DNA from: an uncultured Oscillospiraceae bacterium
Lineage (GTDB): Bacteria > Bacillota > Clostridia > Oscillospirales > Oscillospiraceae
DNA: 64,000 bases
Assembly: GCA_947627735.1 (NCBI GenBank)
Contig: CANQXG010000002.1
Coordinates: 1-64,000 of the forward strand
Direction: 5' to 3'
This document shows positions 34,017 to 53,016 of this stretch, piece by piece. Under the pieces are notes generated by a model. The model did no database searches. It was not told where the DNA came from and was given only the letters and a program-made list of their open reading frames with translations. Each line of letters begins with the position of its first letter. Positions within the stretch are counted from its first letter, which is position 1. The translations under genes and the position numbers were made by a program.

Positions 34017-34092
34017 GCTGCTGTAGCTCAGTCGGTAGAGCGCGTCATTGGTAATGACGAGGTCGGCAGTCCGAATCTGCCCAGCAGCTCCA
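34017..34092 (+). tRNA. tRNA-Thr (GGT), integration target of the element
   Basis: 76 bases with encoded CCA. The acceptor GCTGCTG pairs perfectly with CAGCAGC and the anticodon loop TTGGTAA gives GGT. Bases from 34047 to the 3' end are repeated at 52964-53016. The T-stem here has an A-T pair where the distant copy has G-C, so this 3' half probably came in with the element. The gene remains complete and should be functional. Confidence 0.97.
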
Positions 34093-34099
34093 CAGCAAA
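34047..34099 (+). other. Left attachment site (attL) in tRNA-Thr
   Basis: 53 bases from the anticodon loop through seven bases past CCA match 52964-53016 with only two differences. The two differences form one base pair of the T-stem (A-T here, G-C at the right end). This defines the duplicated core left by tyrosine-recombinase integration. Confidence 0.92.
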
Positions 34100-34259: not shown

Positions 34260-35480
34260 TTACCCGGCGCTATGCTTCTCGCTGTCTTGCGGCGTGTCCT
34301 CCTTGATGCTGTCCCGGACGATATCGCTCGCCCGCTTCCGGCTCTCTTTGTTGGCGTCGGTGTACATGCGAAGGGTGACGGCCTTATCCGAGTGGCCCAG
34401 ATTCTCCGCTATGCTGGCAACGTCGGCGCCGTTGGTGATGCCTATGCTGGCGTAGGTGTGCCGGAGCTTGTGCGGGTGGAGCTCCACGCCGTAGCGTTTG
34501 GAAAAAGTGGCGAGATACTTTGTGGGGGTCGTTGCAAACATCGGTTCGCTGTTCTGGCCCCTCTTGGGAAACACGAATTGAGATATACCGTTCTTGATCT
34601 GTTCCCGTTGCACTTCCTTCAACAGGGCCATAACATCCGGGCCGACATCAATGGTCCTGATTCGGCGGCTCTTTGGTGTGTCTAGGTAAGACCCGGCATC
34701 GGGAGTGTAACAGACATTACTGGCGATGGCGATCTGGTTGCTTGTGAAGTCAACGGCACTCCACTTCAAGGCGGAAATCTCACCGCGCCTGCAGCCTGTG
34801 TCGATCAGCAGCCGAATATATGCTCGCCACTTCAACGGCTCTTTGTCCAGGCATTCCAGGATATAACGGACCTCCGAGACGGTGCATGAATCGACCTCAT
34901 CCATAATGATCTCGTCCTTGCGGGGCGTGGGCCTGTCAACCTTGTTCATCGGGTTGCGGTCTATCACGTCCTTTTTGTAAGCCCGGCCAAACAGGCCAGA
35001 CAGGACAGCATAGCACTTCACACATGAGCTGTGAGCCTTTCCTTCGGCTTTAAGGCCAAGGAGAAGCGAATCTATATCATCTGTCGTAACTTCTGTGATC
35101 TTCTTGTCGCCGATTTTGGGGTATATCCAGTTATCAAGGCACCGCTGGTAGCTGTCTCGTGTGTTTTCGGCCAAGCCAATTCGCTTTGCGGGCATATACA
35201 TGTTTTCTGCGTACTGCCGGACTGTAAGGATTCTTGCGGCCTCCTCAGCGGCCGCGGCCTCCCGCTCCTTTCGCTCTTTCCCGGATATGACCTCCCCGGC
35301 CTTGCACTGCCTCTCAAAATCTGCGGCGACCTTGGCCAGCTCCCGCTCAATGGCCCTCTTGCTCCAGCCGGCCGGCGGCGCCCAGCGCATGGAGAGGGTG
35401 GGGAGGCCCCGGCCCCGGCGCACGCGGATGCGGTAAGATATGCTACCGTTTTTCGCCGCAACCATGTCGATGCTGGGCAC
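34260..35480 (-). CDS. int: Site-specific tyrosine recombinase (integrase)
   Basis: 406 aa. An N-terminal arm-binding domain is followed by a core-binding SAM-like domain (YAENMYMPAKRIGLAENTRDSY) and the catalytic domain with Arg in DTGCRRGEI, HKLRHTYAS and the tyrosine in AVTLRMY. All catalytic residues are visible, so it should be active. The GTG at 35480 is preferred over an in-frame GTG at 35489 because AAGGAGG lies eight bases before it. The gene points toward attL and the tRNA, as expected. Confidence 0.95.
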   Translation of the reverse strand: MPSIDMVAAKNGSISYRIRVRRGRGLPTLSMRWAPPAGWSKRAIERELAKVAADFERQCKAGEVISGKERKEREAAAAEEAARILTVRQYAENMYMPAKRIGLAENTRDSYQRCLDNWIYPKIGDKKITEVTTDDIDSLLLGLKAEGKAHSSCVKCYAVLSGLFGRAYKKDVIDRNPMNKVDRPTPRKDEIIMDEVDSCTVSEVRYILECLDKEPLKWRAYIRLLIDTGCRRGEISALKWSAVDFTSNQIAIASNVCYTPDAGSYLDTPKSRRIRTIDVGPDVMALLKEVQREQIKNGISQFVFPKRGQNSEPMFATTPTKYLATFSKRYGVELHPHKLRHTYASIGITNGADVASIAENLGHSDKAVTLRMYTDANKESRKRASDIVRDSIKEDTPQDSEKHSAG

Positions 35481-35528
35481 GTGTCTCACCTCCTTATAAC
35501 TTGCTTTAAGCTATCTGATTGAGTATAC

Positions 35529-38467: not shown

Positions 38468-39151
38468 TCAGCGCCTCCACACAATATACTCTGTGGGTTC
38501 CTTTATAAAAGAGAGGACCTGCCCGGCGTTGTAGACGATTTGGCTGGGGGCGTCTTTCCTGCTGTTCATGTGATAGACCAGATGGAGCTCGTAATTCAGA
38601 CTGTTTGCACAACAATAGCTGGCCACCTCCAGCTCGCTGCCAGAGAGAGTAAAGGGGTCGCTGACGCCGCTCCGCGTCGTTTTCACCGTTATGAAAATAG
38701 GCTCTCCGCTTTGGGTGAAGGAGAAAATGTCATAGCCGGAGGAAGGGTCATCGGCGTAGGCCTCGTTGACGCCGATGGCATAAGGCGTTCCCTGGAGCTT
38801 CAGACGTTCCTGCTCGGCCACATAGGCCTCGCCGGCGCGTTCCAATTCATCCTGGCGCTGGAGGCGCCTGGACAGGCGTGAAAAGCGCTTCCGGGCACTA
38901 TTGGGCCGCTGAGTCAACATAGGCAGGGCAGTCCCCACCTCGTCGTTGAAGATGGCATCGGCCGGAAGGTGGTAATACTCAGCCAGGCGCTTGTATTTCC
39001 GCTGTTCAAGATTCTTTTGGCCCCGCTCGATGCGGACGATGTCCTGTATGCTTATGCCAGCTTGCTGGGCGACCTGCTGCTGGGTGAGGCCCAGATGGAG
39101 CCGCATATATCGGGCCAGGTTGATGGGGTCGGCAAACACTTCATAATACAT
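38468..39151 (-). CDS. XRE-family HTH protein fused to a DUF3883-like domain
   Basis: 227 aa. An N-terminal XRE helix-turn-helix (LTQQQVAQQAGISIQDIVRIERG, split around the recognition helix) is followed by a basic linker and a C-terminal domain with GYDIFSFTQ, ITVKTTRSG and PFTLSGSELEVA, which fits DUF3883. In this PD-(D/E)xK-like domain the usual ExK is TxK here, so nuclease activity is doubtful. The ATG at 39151 follows AGGAGG. A leader with a terminator lies directly upstream. Likely a regulator or part of a defence-type pair. Confidence 0.7.
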   Translation of the reverse strand: MYYEVFADPINLARYMRLHLGLTQQQVAQQAGISIQDIVRIERGQKNLEQRKYKRLAEYYHLPADAIFNDEVGTALPMLTQRPNSARKRFSRLSRRLQRQDELERAGEAYVAEQERLKLQGTPYAIGVNEAYADDPSSGYDIFSFTQSGEPIFITVKTTRSGVSDPFTLSGSELEVASYCCANSLNYELHLVYHMNSRKDAPSQIVYNAGQVLSFIKEPTEYIVWRR

Positions 39152-39272
39152 ATTCGTACCTCCTAAAATGAAATAGAAAACACCGTGCAGGTATGTTCCT
39201 CCTGCACGGTGCGGTACGGTCATATGCATACCGTAGGCCGTAAATGCTGCGCCGCAGGATTAAAACCGACCC

Positions 39273-39301
39273 TTGCAATCATAACGCAAAGGGGGTATAC
39301 T
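39273..39301 (+). promoter_or_regulatory. Antisense promoter within leader 1
   Basis: TTGCAA and TATACT are spaced 17 bases on the plus strand, facing the leader promoter. Leader 2 has the same box pair at the equivalent place. Confidence 0.6.
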
Positions 39302-39307
39302 AATCCT

Positions 39308-39403
39308 GCGGCGCGGGCAATTCGGCCCGCTGTGTAGGTGGTCACTTCACCTATGCAAGTACATCAAAGTGCCAGCTTTGGTGTACTGCCGCTGTTTTCT
39401 TTT
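39308..39403 (+). ncRNA. Putative antisense RNA 1
   Basis: It would start just after the promoter at 39273-39301 and carries hairpins at 39313-39330 and 39335-39352. It would end at the stem 39359-39386, followed after a short gap by GTTTTCTTTTA. Along its whole length it is complementary to the 5' part of leader 1. Homologous to antisense RNA 2 (CTGTGTAGG, TGCA, and a final hairpin with a CCAG loop). Confidence 0.55.
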
Positions 39404-39411
39404 ATATGGTG

Positions 39412-39440
39412 ATTATACCACAAATTCAGCGTTTTTTCAA
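39412..39440 (-). promoter_or_regulatory. Promoter of leader 1
   Basis: On the minus strand TTGAAA and TATAAT are spaced 17 bases. The sequence around the -10 box (GTGGTATAAT) is shared with the leader 2 promoter. Confidence 0.75.
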
Positions 39441-39542: not shown

Positions 39543-41024
39543 TCACCAAGCATAATACGCATAGATGTGATACCCATACATACCATATAGGTCGTCATAC
39601 TCATACTTGATGATTATATTGCCGTAGGTAGCTTTATCGCGTGCCCAGCCACCTTCTCCGTACGTAGTATCTGCTATGGCTTTCCCGAGTTCAACGAGAC
39701 CGTCATACTCGGTAGTGGCATAAAGGCCTTTCCCGTTAAAAACATTAGTGGTTCCGGCATAAAGCGGGGCAAAACCATTTTCAGGAGTTGCAAGGCCGTA
39801 ATAAAATATGTCGGCATACCCACCACCTACATAGTGTTCGAGCCCATAAGTTTCTAACGCATACGCAAGAATCTCCTGTTCGGCCTGCGCCACCTGTTCG
39901 TCGGTCAGCCAGGGGCCAGCGACCTTATCGCCCCGTGAGCCATCCGAATTGACATGATACCCGTCCACATCGCAGTTGGCGGCCATCTTGCCATCGGAGT
40001 AGAAGTAGTAATACTTGCCGCCGATGCTGTTCCAGCCGTTATCGAACGCCCTGCCAAAGGTGCCATTGTGCTTGGTGTTGAAGTAGTACCAATAGCCATC
40101 GACCCACTGCCAGCCGGTCAAGACCTTGCCAAAAGTACCGTCATGCTTTGGATTGAAGTAGTACCATCCATCGTCTGCCCGGCCCAGGTCGATTTCCCGC
40201 AGGCCATCCAGCATCTTGCCGTCCGCACCGAGGAAGTACCACCCGTTTCCGTCCTGGACCCAATCGCCAGTGACCATCTTGCCGGACATGTCGAAGTAGT
40301 AGTAGGTACCCTCAATGTACTGCCAGCCGGTCGCGGCTTTGCTGTTCTTATAGTAGTATTTGCCTCCGTTGTCATCGGTGAACCAGCCGTTGGCGGGGTG
40401 AGAGGGGGCGGGAGGCGTGGTGCCGCCGCTGGGGCCGCCTTTGCTCCAGGTGTTGGTGCTGCGGTCGTAGTCGCCCCATGCGGAGGTCCAAGTGCATTCT
40501 CCAAAATGGCCGTTGTGGTTAGGCCCAAACCAGGCTTCACCGGCGATGCCTGTATTCTGCCAGCCGGAAAGAACCGCGCCTAAACAGCCGTTAGAATCGG
40601 TGTCCTGGAACATGAACCAGCCGGTGCCGTTGGGATTGCTGACGTACTGGAAGCCGGTAGCCATCTTGCCGTCAGCGTCGAGATAGTACCACAGGCCATG
40701 GGCAGAGCCCTCGCCGAACAGCCAGTAGTCCTGCAGCATCTTGCCGTTCTTGTAGTAGTACCAGCTGCCGTCCTCTTTGACCCAGCCGTTGGCCGTGGCG
40801 GCGGTGGTCGCCGGGACGTCCGCCGTCAGTTCGTCCTCCACCGAAATGGGAGTTGCGGGCTCTATGGCAGCTTCCTCCTCGGACTCGACGGCGGCGGCCA
40901 TCAGCGGGGCCTCAAGCTCCGCTTCTGGAAGGACAGGAGACGCCTCTTCCGCGCCGAGGGCCGGAACGCAAAAAACGATGGTCACAGCAAAGATGCTCAA
41001 CAGCATGGATAAAGTTTTCTTCAT
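39543..41024 (-). CDS. Secreted protein with cell-wall-binding (choline-binding-type) repeats
   Basis: 493 aa. The signal peptide (about 1-26) is followed by a Glu/Ala/Pro-rich stretch. About seven aromatic repeats of the CW_binding type follow, for example WVKEDGSWYYYKNGKML and WQYIEGTYYYFDMSGKM, split in two groups by a GGTTPPAPSHP linker. A C-terminal domain of about 115 residues is Tyr/Gly-rich and unknown. Such repeats bind choline or other wall polymers. GGAGG precedes the ATG at 41024; the frame upstream of it is leader. As element cargo it could change the host surface. Confidence 0.8.
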   Translation of the reverse strand: MKKTLSMLLSIFAVTIVFCVPALGAEEASPVLPEAELEAPLMAAAVESEEEAAIEPATPISVEDELTADVPATTAATANGWVKEDGSWYYYKNGKMLQDYWLFGEGSAHGLWYYLDADGKMATGFQYVSNPNGTGWFMFQDTDSNGCLGAVLSGWQNTGIAGEAWFGPNHNGHFGECTWTSAWGDYDRSTNTWSKGGPSGGTTPPAPSHPANGWFTDDNGGKYYYKNSKAATGWQYIEGTYYYFDMSGKMVTGDWVQDGNGWYFLGADGKMLDGLREIDLGRADDGWYYFNPKHDGTFGKVLTGWQWVDGYWYYFNTKHNGTFGRAFDNGWNSIGGKYYYFYSDGKMAANCDVDGYHVNSDGSRGDKVAGPWLTDEQVAQAEQEILAYALETYGLEHYVGGGYADIFYYGLATPENGFAPLYAGTTNVFNGKGLYATTEYDGLVELGKAIADTTYGEGGWARDKATYGNIIIKYEYDDLYGMYGYHIYAYYAW

Positions 41025-41235
41025 AAATGATGCACCTCCAGATAAGAATAGCGCCGCCACACCGAAAAAGGGTATGACGGCACCAGAATAATCGGCAGCG
41101 GCCGAATGATGTGATGCCGACAGGGCCGCAGGGGACCGGTTGCCCGGCCCCTGCATGGACCCCGCCGGAAAAGCAAAAAAGCGGTGCAGGGCTATCCCTA
41201 CACCGCAGACACATCAAAAGGCCATCAACCCACAC

Positions 41236-41264
41236 TTGTAAAACCAAGCGTAAAAGGGTATAAT
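41236..41264 (+). promoter_or_regulatory. Antisense promoter within leader 2
   Basis: TTGTAA and TATAAT are spaced 17 bases on the plus strand, opposite to the leader direction. Confidence 0.6.
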
Positions 41265-41270
41265 GCCCAT

Positions 41271-41360
41271 GGGCGCTGCAAAGCTGTGTAGGAGCTCACC
41301 CTCCTGCATAGGGTCGTGAGGTGTTACCAGCGCCTCACGACCTGCCTTTTGCGTTTCCGT
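41271..41360 (+). ncRNA. Putative antisense RNA 2
   Basis: It begins after the promoter at 41236-41264 and includes the hairpin around 41289-41305. It would end at the perfect 10-bp stem GGTCGTGAGG/CCTCACGACC (about 41312-41342) and a short T-run. It is fully complementary to the 5' part of leader 2 and similar in order and motifs to antisense RNA 1. Confidence 0.55.
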
Positions 41361-41367
41361 ACTCCTA

Positions 41368-41396
41368 ATTATACCACGATTTAGGAGATTTCGCAA
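41368..41396 (-). promoter_or_regulatory. Promoter of leader 2
   Basis: On the minus strand TTGCGA and TATAAT are spaced 17 bases. The -10 context GTGGTATAAT is the same as in leader 1. Confidence 0.7.
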
Positions 41397-42530: not shown

Positions 42531-44090
42531 ATGATGACAGCATTTGAGAGAGTGATGTATGAGGTGTTTGTCCATACGGTCGTCCCTAAGTCAGTTCTCC
42601 TGTTTATCCTGGAAAAGGCCAATGCCTACCGGTGCATTGAGAAGGCAAAGGCGCAACACCTTATCCGTGAGATTTCGTTTGTTTCCAGAAATGTTGTAAC
42701 CGTGACCAGGTGGACGGAGGATGTACTGATTATCACGCCAGAAGGGGTGGAGTACGTCCGAGACCACATGACTTCTGTTATCCCCTGGGCGACTTACATC
42801 GAGAAGACGATAGACAAAATCGATATGTTTGGCGGGCCAGTATCCTGGGCGACGATTGCGACTCGTTATGGGCGCATCACTGCAGCCGCAGTGATGGCGA
42901 CAAGCATAGGGGCTCGGTCAGAGCCTACATGCTTTAGCTATAAAACCCATGAATATGATGATGACGCTCTCCTGGACGATGAGGTGGATGCTATGCTGGC
43001 CGGTAAATCCTACGAACCACCGGCGACTGTATCAGCTTATGGCGTCCTAATGGCCAGCGCTCTTCAGGAATATTTAGATATAATTGACCGCTTTGGTAAT
43101 ACTCCTTTTTTTGCGGACGGAAGGTCAGACATGGAGTTCCTTTCGGCTCCGCTTATCAAAAGAGAAATAAGTAAATGGGCGGCAGCCAAAGCGGACAAAC
43201 AACCAGACATTCAGGGCGGGCGGTACTGTGGTATTCTTACTTCACGGAAAAGGGCGGTCTTGTTATATATGGTCACGCCCGCCGCTCAATTGATGTGGCA
43301 TAAACATTTTGTTGAGCGCGAAATACGGGCAATCAATATTATGAAGCGAATAAGAATAGGCTATGACCATGAGAGTAAAGGTATATCAGGAATGATTATT
43401 TTTACTAGCGTGGAAATGTTCAAATATACTTATAATTCGCATCGTACAAAGGCAAACAAGCTTCCAGCAAAAAACCGTGAGTTTGGGTATGGAGTCGAGT
43501 ACCTTTGGGCGATTCCATACGGCAAAGATGGATGCAGAGAAATGTATTCCATCATGGAAACATCTCCCTACGAGGAGAATCAGAAAGCAATAGAATGTTT
43601 GGTTAAAACCGGGGAGTTTGAACGTAAAAAACTGGACATAGACACAAAGGCCTTTCCTCTGCAATCAAAGAGCGGGATTCTGGTGGCCATCAATGTTCAC
43701 CTGGACATCAAATATATAGTTCAGATTGAGAGGACTGTCTGCAACGTAAAGGACAAGCGTTTTGCCGTGGCCTGCTTTGGGTGGCAGGCACCGTACTATA
43801 AGGCGGTGCTGGGGGATAGTGTAGACATTATTGTGCTGGACAAGTATCTGCCCGGTTATATCCAGGCATGGGAGAGTATCGACCCGGAGCTGGACATCGA
43901 GATAGGGCTCATTATTTTCATTGCAGTATTGACTGTGCTGCTGATGCAGCCGAAGGTCAGTAACGATTTCTGCCGCCTGATCAAGCGTGACGTCAACGCC
44001 TTCCATCCGGCTATCGTTGTAAATGTAATTTGTGTTGAACAGCGTGCGGGCACGATCCGATGGGTGAAAGGAAAGGGAAGCCGTATATGA
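42531..44090 (+). CDS. Hypothetical element protein, 3' end probably lost
   Basis: 519 aa as read. The first ~75 residues look like a winged helix (FERVMYEVFVHTVVPKSVLL, IITPEGVEYVRDHM), followed by an alpha/beta region up to about residue 450 (FAVACFGWQAPYYKAVLGD). From about 43895 on, the frame runs through the antisense strand of the ImmA-Fic gene and the translation loses protein character. The true C-terminus was probably removed by a deletion joining two convergent genes. Function unknown; a replication-relaxation or MobA-like role cannot be confirmed. GGAGG precedes the ATG. Confidence 0.5.
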   Translation: MMTAFERVMYEVFVHTVVPKSVLLFILEKANAYRCIEKAKAQHLIREISFVSRNVVTVTRWTEDVLIITPEGVEYVRDHMTSVIPWATYIEKTIDKIDMFGGPVSWATIATRYGRITAAAVMATSIGARSEPTCFSYKTHEYDDDALLDDEVDAMLAGKSYEPPATVSAYGVLMASALQEYLDIIDRFGNTPFFADGRSDMEFLSAPLIKREISKWAAAKADKQPDIQGGRYCGILTSRKRAVLLYMVTPAAQLMWHKHFVEREIRAINIMKRIRIGYDHESKGISGMIIFTSVEMFKYTYNSHRTKANKLPAKNREFGYGVEYLWAIPYGKDGCREMYSIMETSPYEENQKAIECLVKTGEFERKKLDIDTKAFPLQSKSGILVAINVHLDIKYIVQIERTVCNVKDKRFAVACFGWQAPYYKAVLGDSVDIIVLDKYLPGYIQAWESIDPELDIEIGLIIFIAVLTVLLMQPKVSNDFCRLIKRDVNAFHPAIVVNVICVEQRAGTIRWVKGKGSRI

Positions 44091-44723
44091 ATCTATCAGA
44101 TCAGCATATAGGCCGGCATATGTCAGCCCACGTTCTCTCCGTTGTTTTTCAGGCGCAAATTTAGAAATGCGTTTTCTTAATTTGTTCGGCGATGTGTCCC
44201 CGTCCAGCATATAGAGCTTATATGCGATCCTGTACACGCAGGCGTCAAAACTCACGCCAAAGTGGTCTGCTATCTCCAAAACCGCAGGAAGAGAAACTTT
44301 TCCGTTCACTGCCCGTTGGCAGACTTGCCTTTTCAATTCGCCGATCGGCATAAGAACGGCAGCAGCAAAGCTCTCGGCAAACTTTTCTCTCGGTTCATCG
44401 CTCCCAGACGGACAGGCGATTTCTTTTTCTGCATCCCTGAAATGATGGCACAACTCATGCACGGCAGTATAGCGCTGCCGAGTGATCGGTCTATTGTAGT
44501 TGATACCGACGACCGCTGTATCGTCACCATCCGATGCCGGAATGTATACTCCCTCCAGGTTCTTAAAATTCCTGAAAGAGAATAGGATGCCGGCATCTTT
44601 AAGCATCTGAAAAGGATTCAGAGGATAGGACAGAGGGCTATCCGCAAAATACATCCGCAGATAGCCCTGTGCCATTTTCTCAGGGTCAGTATACAGTTTT
44701 GCCCGCGACTGGAAATCGGTCAT
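43665..44723 (-). CDS. ImmA/IrrE metallopeptidase with a truncated Fic-type N-region
   Basis: 352 aa as read. The zinc peptidase site HELCH (89-93) lies in TAVHELCHHF, followed by EKFAESFAAAVLMP, as in ImmA proteins that cleave XRE repressors. After about residue 215 TNYIYNDSRMEGV and LDQAAEIVTDLRL resemble the start of a Fic domain. The HPFxxGNGR motif is never reached: from about 43895 downward the frame enters the 3' end of the opposite gene. The peptidase half looks functional. It overlaps the XRE gene by four bases (ATGA). Confidence 0.7.
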   Translation of the reverse strand: MTDFQSRAKLYTDPEKMAQGYLRMYFADSPLSYPLNPFQMLKDAGILFSFRNFKNLEGVYIPASDGDDTAVVGINYNRPITRQRYTAVHELCHHFRDAEKEIACPSGSDEPREKFAESFAAAVLMPIGELKRQVCQRAVNGKVSLPAVLEIADHFGVSFDACVYRIAYKLYMLDGDTSPNKLRKRISKFAPEKQRRERGLTYAGLYADLIDSYTASLSFHPSDRARTLFNTNYIYNDSRMEGVDVTLDQAAEIVTDLRLHQQHSQYCNENNEPYLDVQLRVDTLPCLDITGQILVQHNNVYTIPQHRLIVRCLPPKAGHGKTLVLYVADSPLNLNYIFDVQVNIDGHQNPAL

Positions 44724-45040
44724 TTGCCCGTCTGTTCCCTTATTCTCTCTTTAAACTGCATAAGATTAATTATTTCCGCTTGGTCCTGTTCAGTCAGCCT
44801 CTCAAAGTTGCGCGCAAAGAGTACGGCGGGCCCATTGACTCTTGTGCCATGCAAAAGGGTGTCCGCTGAGACATTAAAAAGGGTACTCAAAGAAGCTAGT
44901 TCGTCAGCAGATACCTTCCGATTACCTGATTCGATTTGAGTTACAGCGGCTCGGTTGATGCCCAAGTAGTTGGCCACATAGTCCTGAGAAAGATGCATCC
45001 GCGTCCGGTATTCTCTGATCCTTTCGTTTAGTTCACTCAT
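44720..45040 (-). CDS. XRE-family repressor paired with ImmA
   Basis: 106 aa. HTH region MHLSQDYVANYLGINRAAVTQIESG is split around the recognition helix, followed by a short helical dimer part. The ATG at 45040 is favoured over one three codons upstream because AAGG is then correctly spaced. It is translationally coupled to the ImmA gene. The pair matches ImmR-ImmA modules that control excision of integrative elements, or an XRE-peptidase toxin-antitoxin. Confidence 0.85.
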   Translation of the reverse strand: MSELNERIREYRTRMHLSQDYVANYLGINRAAVTQIESGNRKVSADELASLSTLFNVSADTLLHGTRVNGPAVLFARNFERLTEQDQAEIINLMQFKERIREQTGK

Positions 45041-45228
45041 TTGGTTCATCCTTCTTTCAAATATGGCATCACATATATAGTATACTTCTGCACGGTGCAA
45101 AAAGCAACACTTTTTGTTGGAAAATCAAACGTCATATCATTAAATGACTACTTTTAATTGCCATATAGAAAGCCCGGTCCTCTTTCATAGAATAATGTCG
45201 GAATGTCGGATCGCGGTTTGTTCATTAG

Positions 45229-52963: not shown

Positions 52964-53016
52964 ATTGGTAATGACGAGGTCGGCGGTCCGAATCCGCCCA
53001 GCAGCTCCACAGCAAA
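52964..53016 (+). other. Right attachment site (attR), orphan tRNA-Thr 3' half
   Basis: 53 bases identical to 34047-34099 except for two positions that together form a G-C pair in the T-stem. It contains the anticodon loop, T-arm and CCA but no 5' half, so it makes no tRNA. It is most likely the original chromosomal 3' end displaced by integration. Confidence 0.92.

Follow-up and report, generated by a model that had tools for sequence, protein, structure and literature searches.

We estimate at about 0.7 the probability that the module at 39.2 kb of the window (the whole 64,000-nt stretch analysed, from an uncultured Oscillospiraceae bacterium) is an antisense-RNA-controlled transcription attenuator, one of a family dispersed in cellular genomes. 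This reading is drawn from sequence comparison, and the module is apparently one copy of a widespread, undescribed gene switch of the Clostridia. On the leader strand its parts follow the order A - hairpin 3 - 1 - 2 - hairpin 1 - antisense promoter (other strand) - 3 - 4 - A' - gene (Table 1).

In the proposed course of events, the leader promoter would start a leader of ~235 nt, and the opposite strand, as the conserved promoter and structure suggest, would yield a stable ~95-nt RNA spanning A to hairpin 1. When this RNA is absent, segment 2, whose capacity to pair with arm 3 is documented below, would hold arm 3, so that terminator 3:4 would be blocked and the gene read. When the antisense RNA is bound to the 5' part of the leader, arm 3 would be left free, terminator 3:4 would form, and transcription would stop before the gene. 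The pairing A:A' would hold the antiterminated form or protect the RNA ends, and is the least certain of these steps.

Table 1. Features of the two module copies in the window
Feature	Positions	Strand	Basis
Copy at 39.2 kb
Leader promoter, TTGAAA-17-TATAAT, extended -10	39412..39440	-	promoter scan; 17-bp TTG in 84/104 copies
Predicted leader RNA of the XRE-DUF3883 gene, start to terminator tail, ~235 nt	39170..39405	-	start inferred from -10 box
Segment A, leader 5' end, complementary to terminator tail A'	39390..39404	-	8 bp only in this copy
Segment 1, 5' arm of leader hairpin 2	39348..39357	-	structure/covariation
Segment 2 (CCTACACAGC), candidate antiterminator, complementary to terminator 5' arm	39329..39338	-	one A-C mismatch in core pairing
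Antisense promoter, TTGCAA-17-TATACT	39273..39301	+	17-bp TTG in 85/104 copies, 34/39 distant copies
Predicted antisense RNA, ~95 nt	39308..39402	+	ends inferred
Antisense RNA, closing stem	39308-39312/39388-39392	+	folding, covariation
Antisense RNA, hairpin 1	39313-39330	+	folding, covariation
Antisense RNA, hairpin 2	39331-39357	+	folding, covariation
Antisense RNA, hairpin 3 with U tract (its terminator)	39358-39402	+	folding, covariation
Leader terminator: arm 3 39201-39212, arm 4 39180-39191, tail A' 39170-39180	39170..39212	-	sequence
Controlled gene: HTH_3 + NOV_C (DUF3883) protein, 227 aa	38468..39151	-	ORF + Pfam
Copy at 41.2 kb
Leader promoter, TTGCGA-17-TATAAT, extended -10	41368..41396	-	promoter scan
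Antisense promoter, TTGTAA-17-TATAAT	41236..41264	+	promoter scan
Predicted antisense RNA	41271..41356	+	ends inferred
Segment 2 (CCTACACAGC), CCTACAC Watson-Crick match to GTGTAGG of own terminator	41283..41292	-	sequence
Leader terminator, GCGGTGTAGGG-4-CCCTGCACCGC + U tail	41169..41206	-	terminator scan
Controlled gene, signal-peptide-like N terminus + choline-binding repeats	39543..41024	-	ORF + Pfam

A sequence-only reading of the region had proposed a minus-strand leader promoter, a strong leader terminator and a second promoter on the plus strand, and all three are present. The leader promoter has an extended -10 (TG) and 11/12 matches, while the plus-strand promoter (9/12) is directed back into the leader. 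The terminator, about 20 bases ahead of the start codon at 39151, consists of GCACCGTGCAGG, a loop of 9 nt, CCTGCACGGTGT and then TTTTCTATTTC (39212-39170, minus strand); it escaped the first scan, which allowed loops of 3-8 nt, and was recovered by a script with longer loops. A lone 9/12 promoter site is not significant by itself, because the scan finds 22 promoter-like sites over 7 kb where shuffled sequence gives 7.8 (sd 2.8). Compared with shuffles, the fold of this copy has a z of -9.5 for the leader and -7.6 for the antisense RNA. Its antisense promoter sits between perfect inverted repeats, GCGCCGCAGGATTA (39249-39262 and 39301-39314), which give a large leader hairpin.

The equivalent module that had been claimed at 41.2 kb indeed has the same parts in the same order, 2 kb from the first copy, and a third copy lies on another contig of the same genome (C35), ahead of a lipoprotein-like gene. 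The 3' part of a tRNA-Thr gene is repeated 18.9 kb apart (34047-34099 and 52964-53016; two exact 21-mers in register) and is adjoined by a tyrosine integrase gene (34260-35489). These are likely the attachment repeats of an element enclosing both module copies. The same element carries, at 43665-45100, an XRE regulator beside a Peptidase_M78 (IrrE-like) protein, a pair that is typical of element repressors.

A pattern scan of 300 genomes of the family found the module in two, the window's own genome included. One pattern scan of genome contigs gave 14 stretches, of which seven (eight copies), all titled Oscillospiraceae, were judged real by eye and seven (L006, L007, L009, L010, L012, L014 and L019) were rejected as chance. 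The covariance search that the sequence-only reading had suggested was run from ten seed copies. These had been found with patterns that required GGTATAAT, CTACACAGC and AKTATA, so these letters carry no weight in their alignment (A2). With a cut-off of E 0.01, the resulting model (R1) had matches in 133 of the 400 genomes searched from the family of the window, in 48 of 106 genera; within the window's own genus, three of nine genomes had no match among those listed. A second model (R2) was built from 104 copies (102 distinct), chosen from 30 given loci and 80 of the listed R1 matches taken nearly by score order, by which strong matches are favoured. The alignment drew on 100 sources and omitted L011, L035, L037 and L068 (duplicates or overlaps) and L119-L130.

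R2 found three copies in the window's own genome and, at E 0.001, matched 17 of 391 genomes sampled over the class and 9 of 398 sampled over the phylum, the own genome being included in each; the copies in that genome were still recovered under the stricter filters of the large class and phylum searches. Copies per genome are lower bounds in the family, class and phylum searches, in which eight candidates were scored per genome. As controls, R2 had no match in five genomes with chance pattern matches, in 198 genomes of the class of L010 (Seonamhaeicola, which we take to be a Bacteroidota genome) or in 200 genomes of the class of L009 (Lacicoccus). Exact patterns found nothing in two scans of viral contigs, and the copy at 39.2 kb, the only query used there, found nothing in phage records. 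A plasmid search with L024 as its only query returned a 59-bp piece of a Subdoligranulum variabile plasmid, which was discarded as it does not match R2. For 778 similar pairs of copies, from the same or from different genomes, the median start of the similarity is 1 nt, and its median end 155 nt, from the -10 region. Therefore, it is the module that is common to the copies, and mostly not the gene.

The promoters could be assessed partly outside the model, in that the -10 box was taken as the best match at the model edge and lies inside the copy-finding model, and the -35 boxes lie outside it. The spacing between TTG and -10 is exactly 17 bp in 84 of the 104 leader promoters and 85 of the 104 antisense promoters, and any other spacing from 5 to 30 occurs in at most nine copies. 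Chance is excluded by this conserved layout, that is, by the 17-bp spacing in both promoters. In 39 distant copies from the class and phylum samples, the antisense promoter has the TTG at 17 bp in 34, and the leader promoter at 17 bp in 14, at 16 bp in eight, at 18 in four and at 20 in nine.

The two promoters converge at a distance of about 100 bp in most copies, as would be expected if the effect were one of colliding transcription, with the convergent promoters interfering and RNA pairing irrelevant. This explanation, however, would leave the structured antisense RNA and the covarying pairings 2:3 and A:A', described below, unexplained, and we regard it as very improbable.

The plus-strand RNA folds into three hairpins inside a closing stem. 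Over the 104 copies, 97.9% of 3140 cells are paired and double changes are found at 25 of 31 pairs, against 79.1% paired in shuffles and 36-52% in slid versions. The alignment was fitted to the model and so favours the structure; a ten-sequence MAFFT alignment made before the model, with a hand-drawn structure, gives the same picture (94.8% paired, 14 pairs). Read as the antisense strand, the 104 copies hold 547 G-U cells and 14 A-C cells, and read as the leader strand, only 80.9% of their cells are paired. Therefore, the plus-strand RNA is the one selected as a folded RNA. On the leader strand, A-C mismatches weaken hairpin 2 at the place where segment 2, which is its 3' half, would need to be free. 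U-turn (YUNR) loops, which are common in plasmid antisense RNAs, are not enriched (29/104 antisense loops against 27/104 leader loops). Stav et al. likewise take A-C mismatches as a sign that a structure is being read on the wrong strand (PMC6429828).

Of the two terminator rules applied, the one used for these counts finds a terminator in 96 of the 104 copies, at most 330 nt away from the leader -10; three of the remaining eight are cut by a contig end (96/101 uncut). Measured from the module start at the leader -10, arm 3 begins at a median of 195 nt. This 5' arm of the terminator often reads G-GUGUAGG, which are the letters of the antisense RNA, and can pair with the CCUACAC of segment 2. 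In 16 copies that belong to another subfamily, both sides have changed jointly (CUCAGCAC or CUCGACAC with GUGUUGAG). The 2:3 duplex scores of the two subfamilies are 16.3 and 20.6 for their own partners, 11.7 and 11.9 when crossed, and 11.7 with a shuffled arm, and in 20 of 96 copies the score is 12 or less, which is about the shuffled level. Among 80 non-redundant copies the own mean was reached by none of 500 permutations. Within the large subfamily alone, where both sides are nearly invariant, covariation is not significant (29/500 permutations).

When nascent transcripts ending after arm 3 were folded, the mean probability of pairing between arm 3 and segment 2 was 0.484 per nt and fell to 0.209 on shuffling of segment 2; it exceeded 0.3 in 76 of 96 copies against 31 when shuffled. 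The copy at 39.2 kb has the layout of an attenuator, as had been claimed, but its antiterminator pairing contains an A-C mismatch and is predicted to be weak (0.07, against 0.43 in the 41.2-kb copy), so it is not the best example of its family. With the region covered by the antisense RNA blocked, the mean free fraction of arm 3 rises from 0.23 to 0.40, a change in the expected direction and of modest size, with a gain above 0.2 in 34 of 80 copies. The wobble test for 2:3 on the leader strand gave more A-C (88) than G-U (27), the opposite of what is expected for leader-strand pairing alone. We suppose that the A-C excess reflects the need of arm 3 to pair with arm 4 as well. A pairing 1:4 is also seen, but its G-U and A-C counts are about equal (55 and 62), and it is not claimed. 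Attenuation by a leader peptide and a type I toxin-antitoxin arrangement were set aside, an ORF of at least 8 codons, preceded by an RBS and closed before the terminator, being present in 3 of 96 leaders.

In the 39 class and phylum copies, of which one (L150) is from the window's family and one (L148) is cut short, a terminator is present in 33, a 2:3 score of at least 14 in 28 and an A:A' score of at least 22 in 23, with thresholds set by eye, any terminator within 450 nt accepted and no shuffled control. These downstream features amount to an independent prediction, since the model stops at the antisense -10 and the terminator lies outside it. Taken together, the 104 aligned family copies and these 39 lend support to the layout and logic of antisense-controlled attenuation of the pT181/pIP501 type that had been put forward for the region, so far as sequence can tell. 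Inspection by eye of L024-L033 showed that a further variable hairpin (about GCAUGAGAAG..CUUCUUGCGC) often stands upstream of the terminator and after the antisense promoter, and that pairing is possible between a UGUGUCGCAU stretch and AUGCGGCA close to where the leader starts. These leaders may hold a second switch.

The stem containing GUGUAGG, common to most copies inspected, also invites another interpretation, namely that the plus-strand RNA is a free small RNA which acts in trans on many mRNAs through this stem, its overlap with the leader being secondary. Such an RNA would agree with the plus strand being the structured one and with the several copies present in many genomes. On the opposite strand, however, the leader promoter with its 17-bp spacing, the terminator and the mimicking arm 3 are conserved, and hairpin 3 varies between copies, which fits pairing in cis. 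We therefore hold the trans-acting RNA to be unlikely, if the least improbable of the alternatives considered here.

For the attenuator, the strongest long-range covariation in these alignments is that of A:A', which the sequence-only reading had missed. In many copies about 12-16 nt near the leader 5' end match the terminator tail, with letters that differ between copies; the match is 8 bp long in both window copies. Among non-redundant copies the score is 25.9 for own partners and 17.4 (sd 0.49) for permuted ones, and the own value was reached in none of 500 permutations. The raw wobble counts are G-U 75 and A-C 27; corrected for the tail letters they become 42/555 and 10/74 (p 0.11), and they are not counted in favour of A:A'.

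A and A' might instead be DNA inverted repeats of an invertible promoter or mobile cassette, with RNA pairing incidental. Repeats of 12-16 bp flanking a promoter, a module shared by copies whose genes mostly are not, and the lack of a G-U preference in the corrected wobble test are all in keeping with this. However, A differs widely between copies, even among the three of the window's own genome, so there is no single recombinase site. Furthermore, ten related pairs (of 45 listed, with one strand searched and a single gene, from three genomes, accounting for three of the ten) align unbroken over the module and both flanks, and hence are in the same orientation. Reasoning from the anatomy, an inversion would again put a terminator ahead of the gene. 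We consider the DNA explanation quite improbable and, because A varies within one genome and the ten flank-spanning pairs share their orientation, lean toward A:A' acting as an RNA pairing.

The module does precede the XRE-DUF3883 regulator gene whose control had been proposed, but it is not specific to that gene and elsewhere precedes many unrelated ones. Among the 104 copies, 77 distinct downstream genes passed the rule for inclusion. A simple hydrophobicity rule assigned an N terminus like that of a signal peptide or membrane protein to 43 of these 77, and to 28 of 152 other genes at the loci. A Pfam scan covered 57 of 71 downstream gene references, near-duplicates and some short ones having been dropped by hand, and found SLH in 10 of the 57 proteins, Cu_amine_oxidN1 in seven, LRR_5 in five, phage integrase in four, and NOV_C, HATPase_c and RHS in three each. 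The genes thus comprise surface proteins, regulators, integrases and others, and none is the plasmid replication gene that the pT181/pIP501 class requires. The gene after the module in L030 resembles the XRE protein of the window (47% identity), and a NOV_C-type gene may be a recurrent target. In L008 and L018 the gene upstream of the module and divergent from it, presumably a leucyl-tRNA synthetase, is of the same type, yet the downstream genes differ.

The frequency of SLH domains bears on the possibility that the leader is a ligand- or protein-sensing element, a riboswitch candidate, with the opposite promoter incidental. Stav et al. (2019; PMC6429828) reported 80 examples of the SLH motif, a riboswitch candidate that precedes SLH-domain genes in bacteria including Clostridia, and the present module likewise precedes such genes in Clostridia. 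That motif was presented as a candidate for ligand binding, and the word 'antisense' does not appear in the main text of the report (PMC6429828). A sensing leader is hard to reconcile with a leader strand that pairs so badly where the other pairs well, with the conserved antisense promoters, and with hairpin letters that vary freely provided they stay paired, unlike those of an aptamer; we give it very little credence. Compared by description rather than by sequence, the SLH motif may be an earlier sighting of part of the module family.

The attenuation logic proposed here matches that described for pT181 (PMC4878617), and antisense attenuation has likewise been described for pIP501 repR (PMC4981023). 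As these accounts outline them, pT181 repC and pIP501 repR share with the module a convergent antisense RNA against the 5' leader, an intrinsic terminator placed ahead of the gene, and an antiterminator that occupies the 5' arm of this terminator. In contrast, each of them serves one plasmid rep gene, whereas the module occurs as dispersed copies in cellular genomes ahead of unrelated genes, and it differs further in its three-hairpin antisense RNA inside a closing stem and in the conserved A:A' pairing. The module is therefore filed as working like pT181/pIP501 rather than as a member, because the defining plasmid replication gene is absent.

With Rfam 15 at the gathering cut-off, the window (two tRNAs only) and ten further loci gave no family match for the module, and permissive scans of the window copies and eight loci gave four weak matches to unrelated families, which were dismissed. 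A search of the open-licence literature found no description of the module family. In Bacteroides polysaccharide loci, a family of cis-antisense RNAs (DonS type) is found beside surface-protein genes of gut bacteria. The two families are alike in this respect and differ in phylum; R2 matched 0/198 genomes in the Seonamhaeicola class, and the abstract openings consulted on DonS-type RNAs make no mention of such attenuation. Fremin and Bhatt (2021; PMC8040213) list 3161 candidates, among which the module family could be represented.

At slightly better than even odds, we would go further and regard the copies as a large unnamed class of antisense attenuators, portable cassettes across the Clostridia, of which 1-8 were found per matching genome (8 being the number scored). 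Each would have a private antisense RNA as the gate for an element gene or for a protein that is secreted or at the surface, so that a genome would hold several independent RNA-only gates, and the terminator would mimic the antisense RNA in two places, arm 3 and the tail. Antisense attenuation is familiar chiefly as a control of plasmid copy number and as a tool of synthetic biology derived from one plasmid element. The account of pT181 agrees with this (PMC4878617).

If the proposed reading is true, this natural family, with many divergent copies ahead of diverse Clostridia genes, would be a general means of surface-protein control. Since the frequent targets are secreted or surface proteins, and sometimes genes of integrated elements, the likely outcome for surface proteins is low, threshold-like or uneven expression. 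The family would also be a rich source of ready-made attenuator pairs that differ in their recognition hairpins, and in many genomes the unannotated sequence upstream of genes would become a testable regulatory layer.
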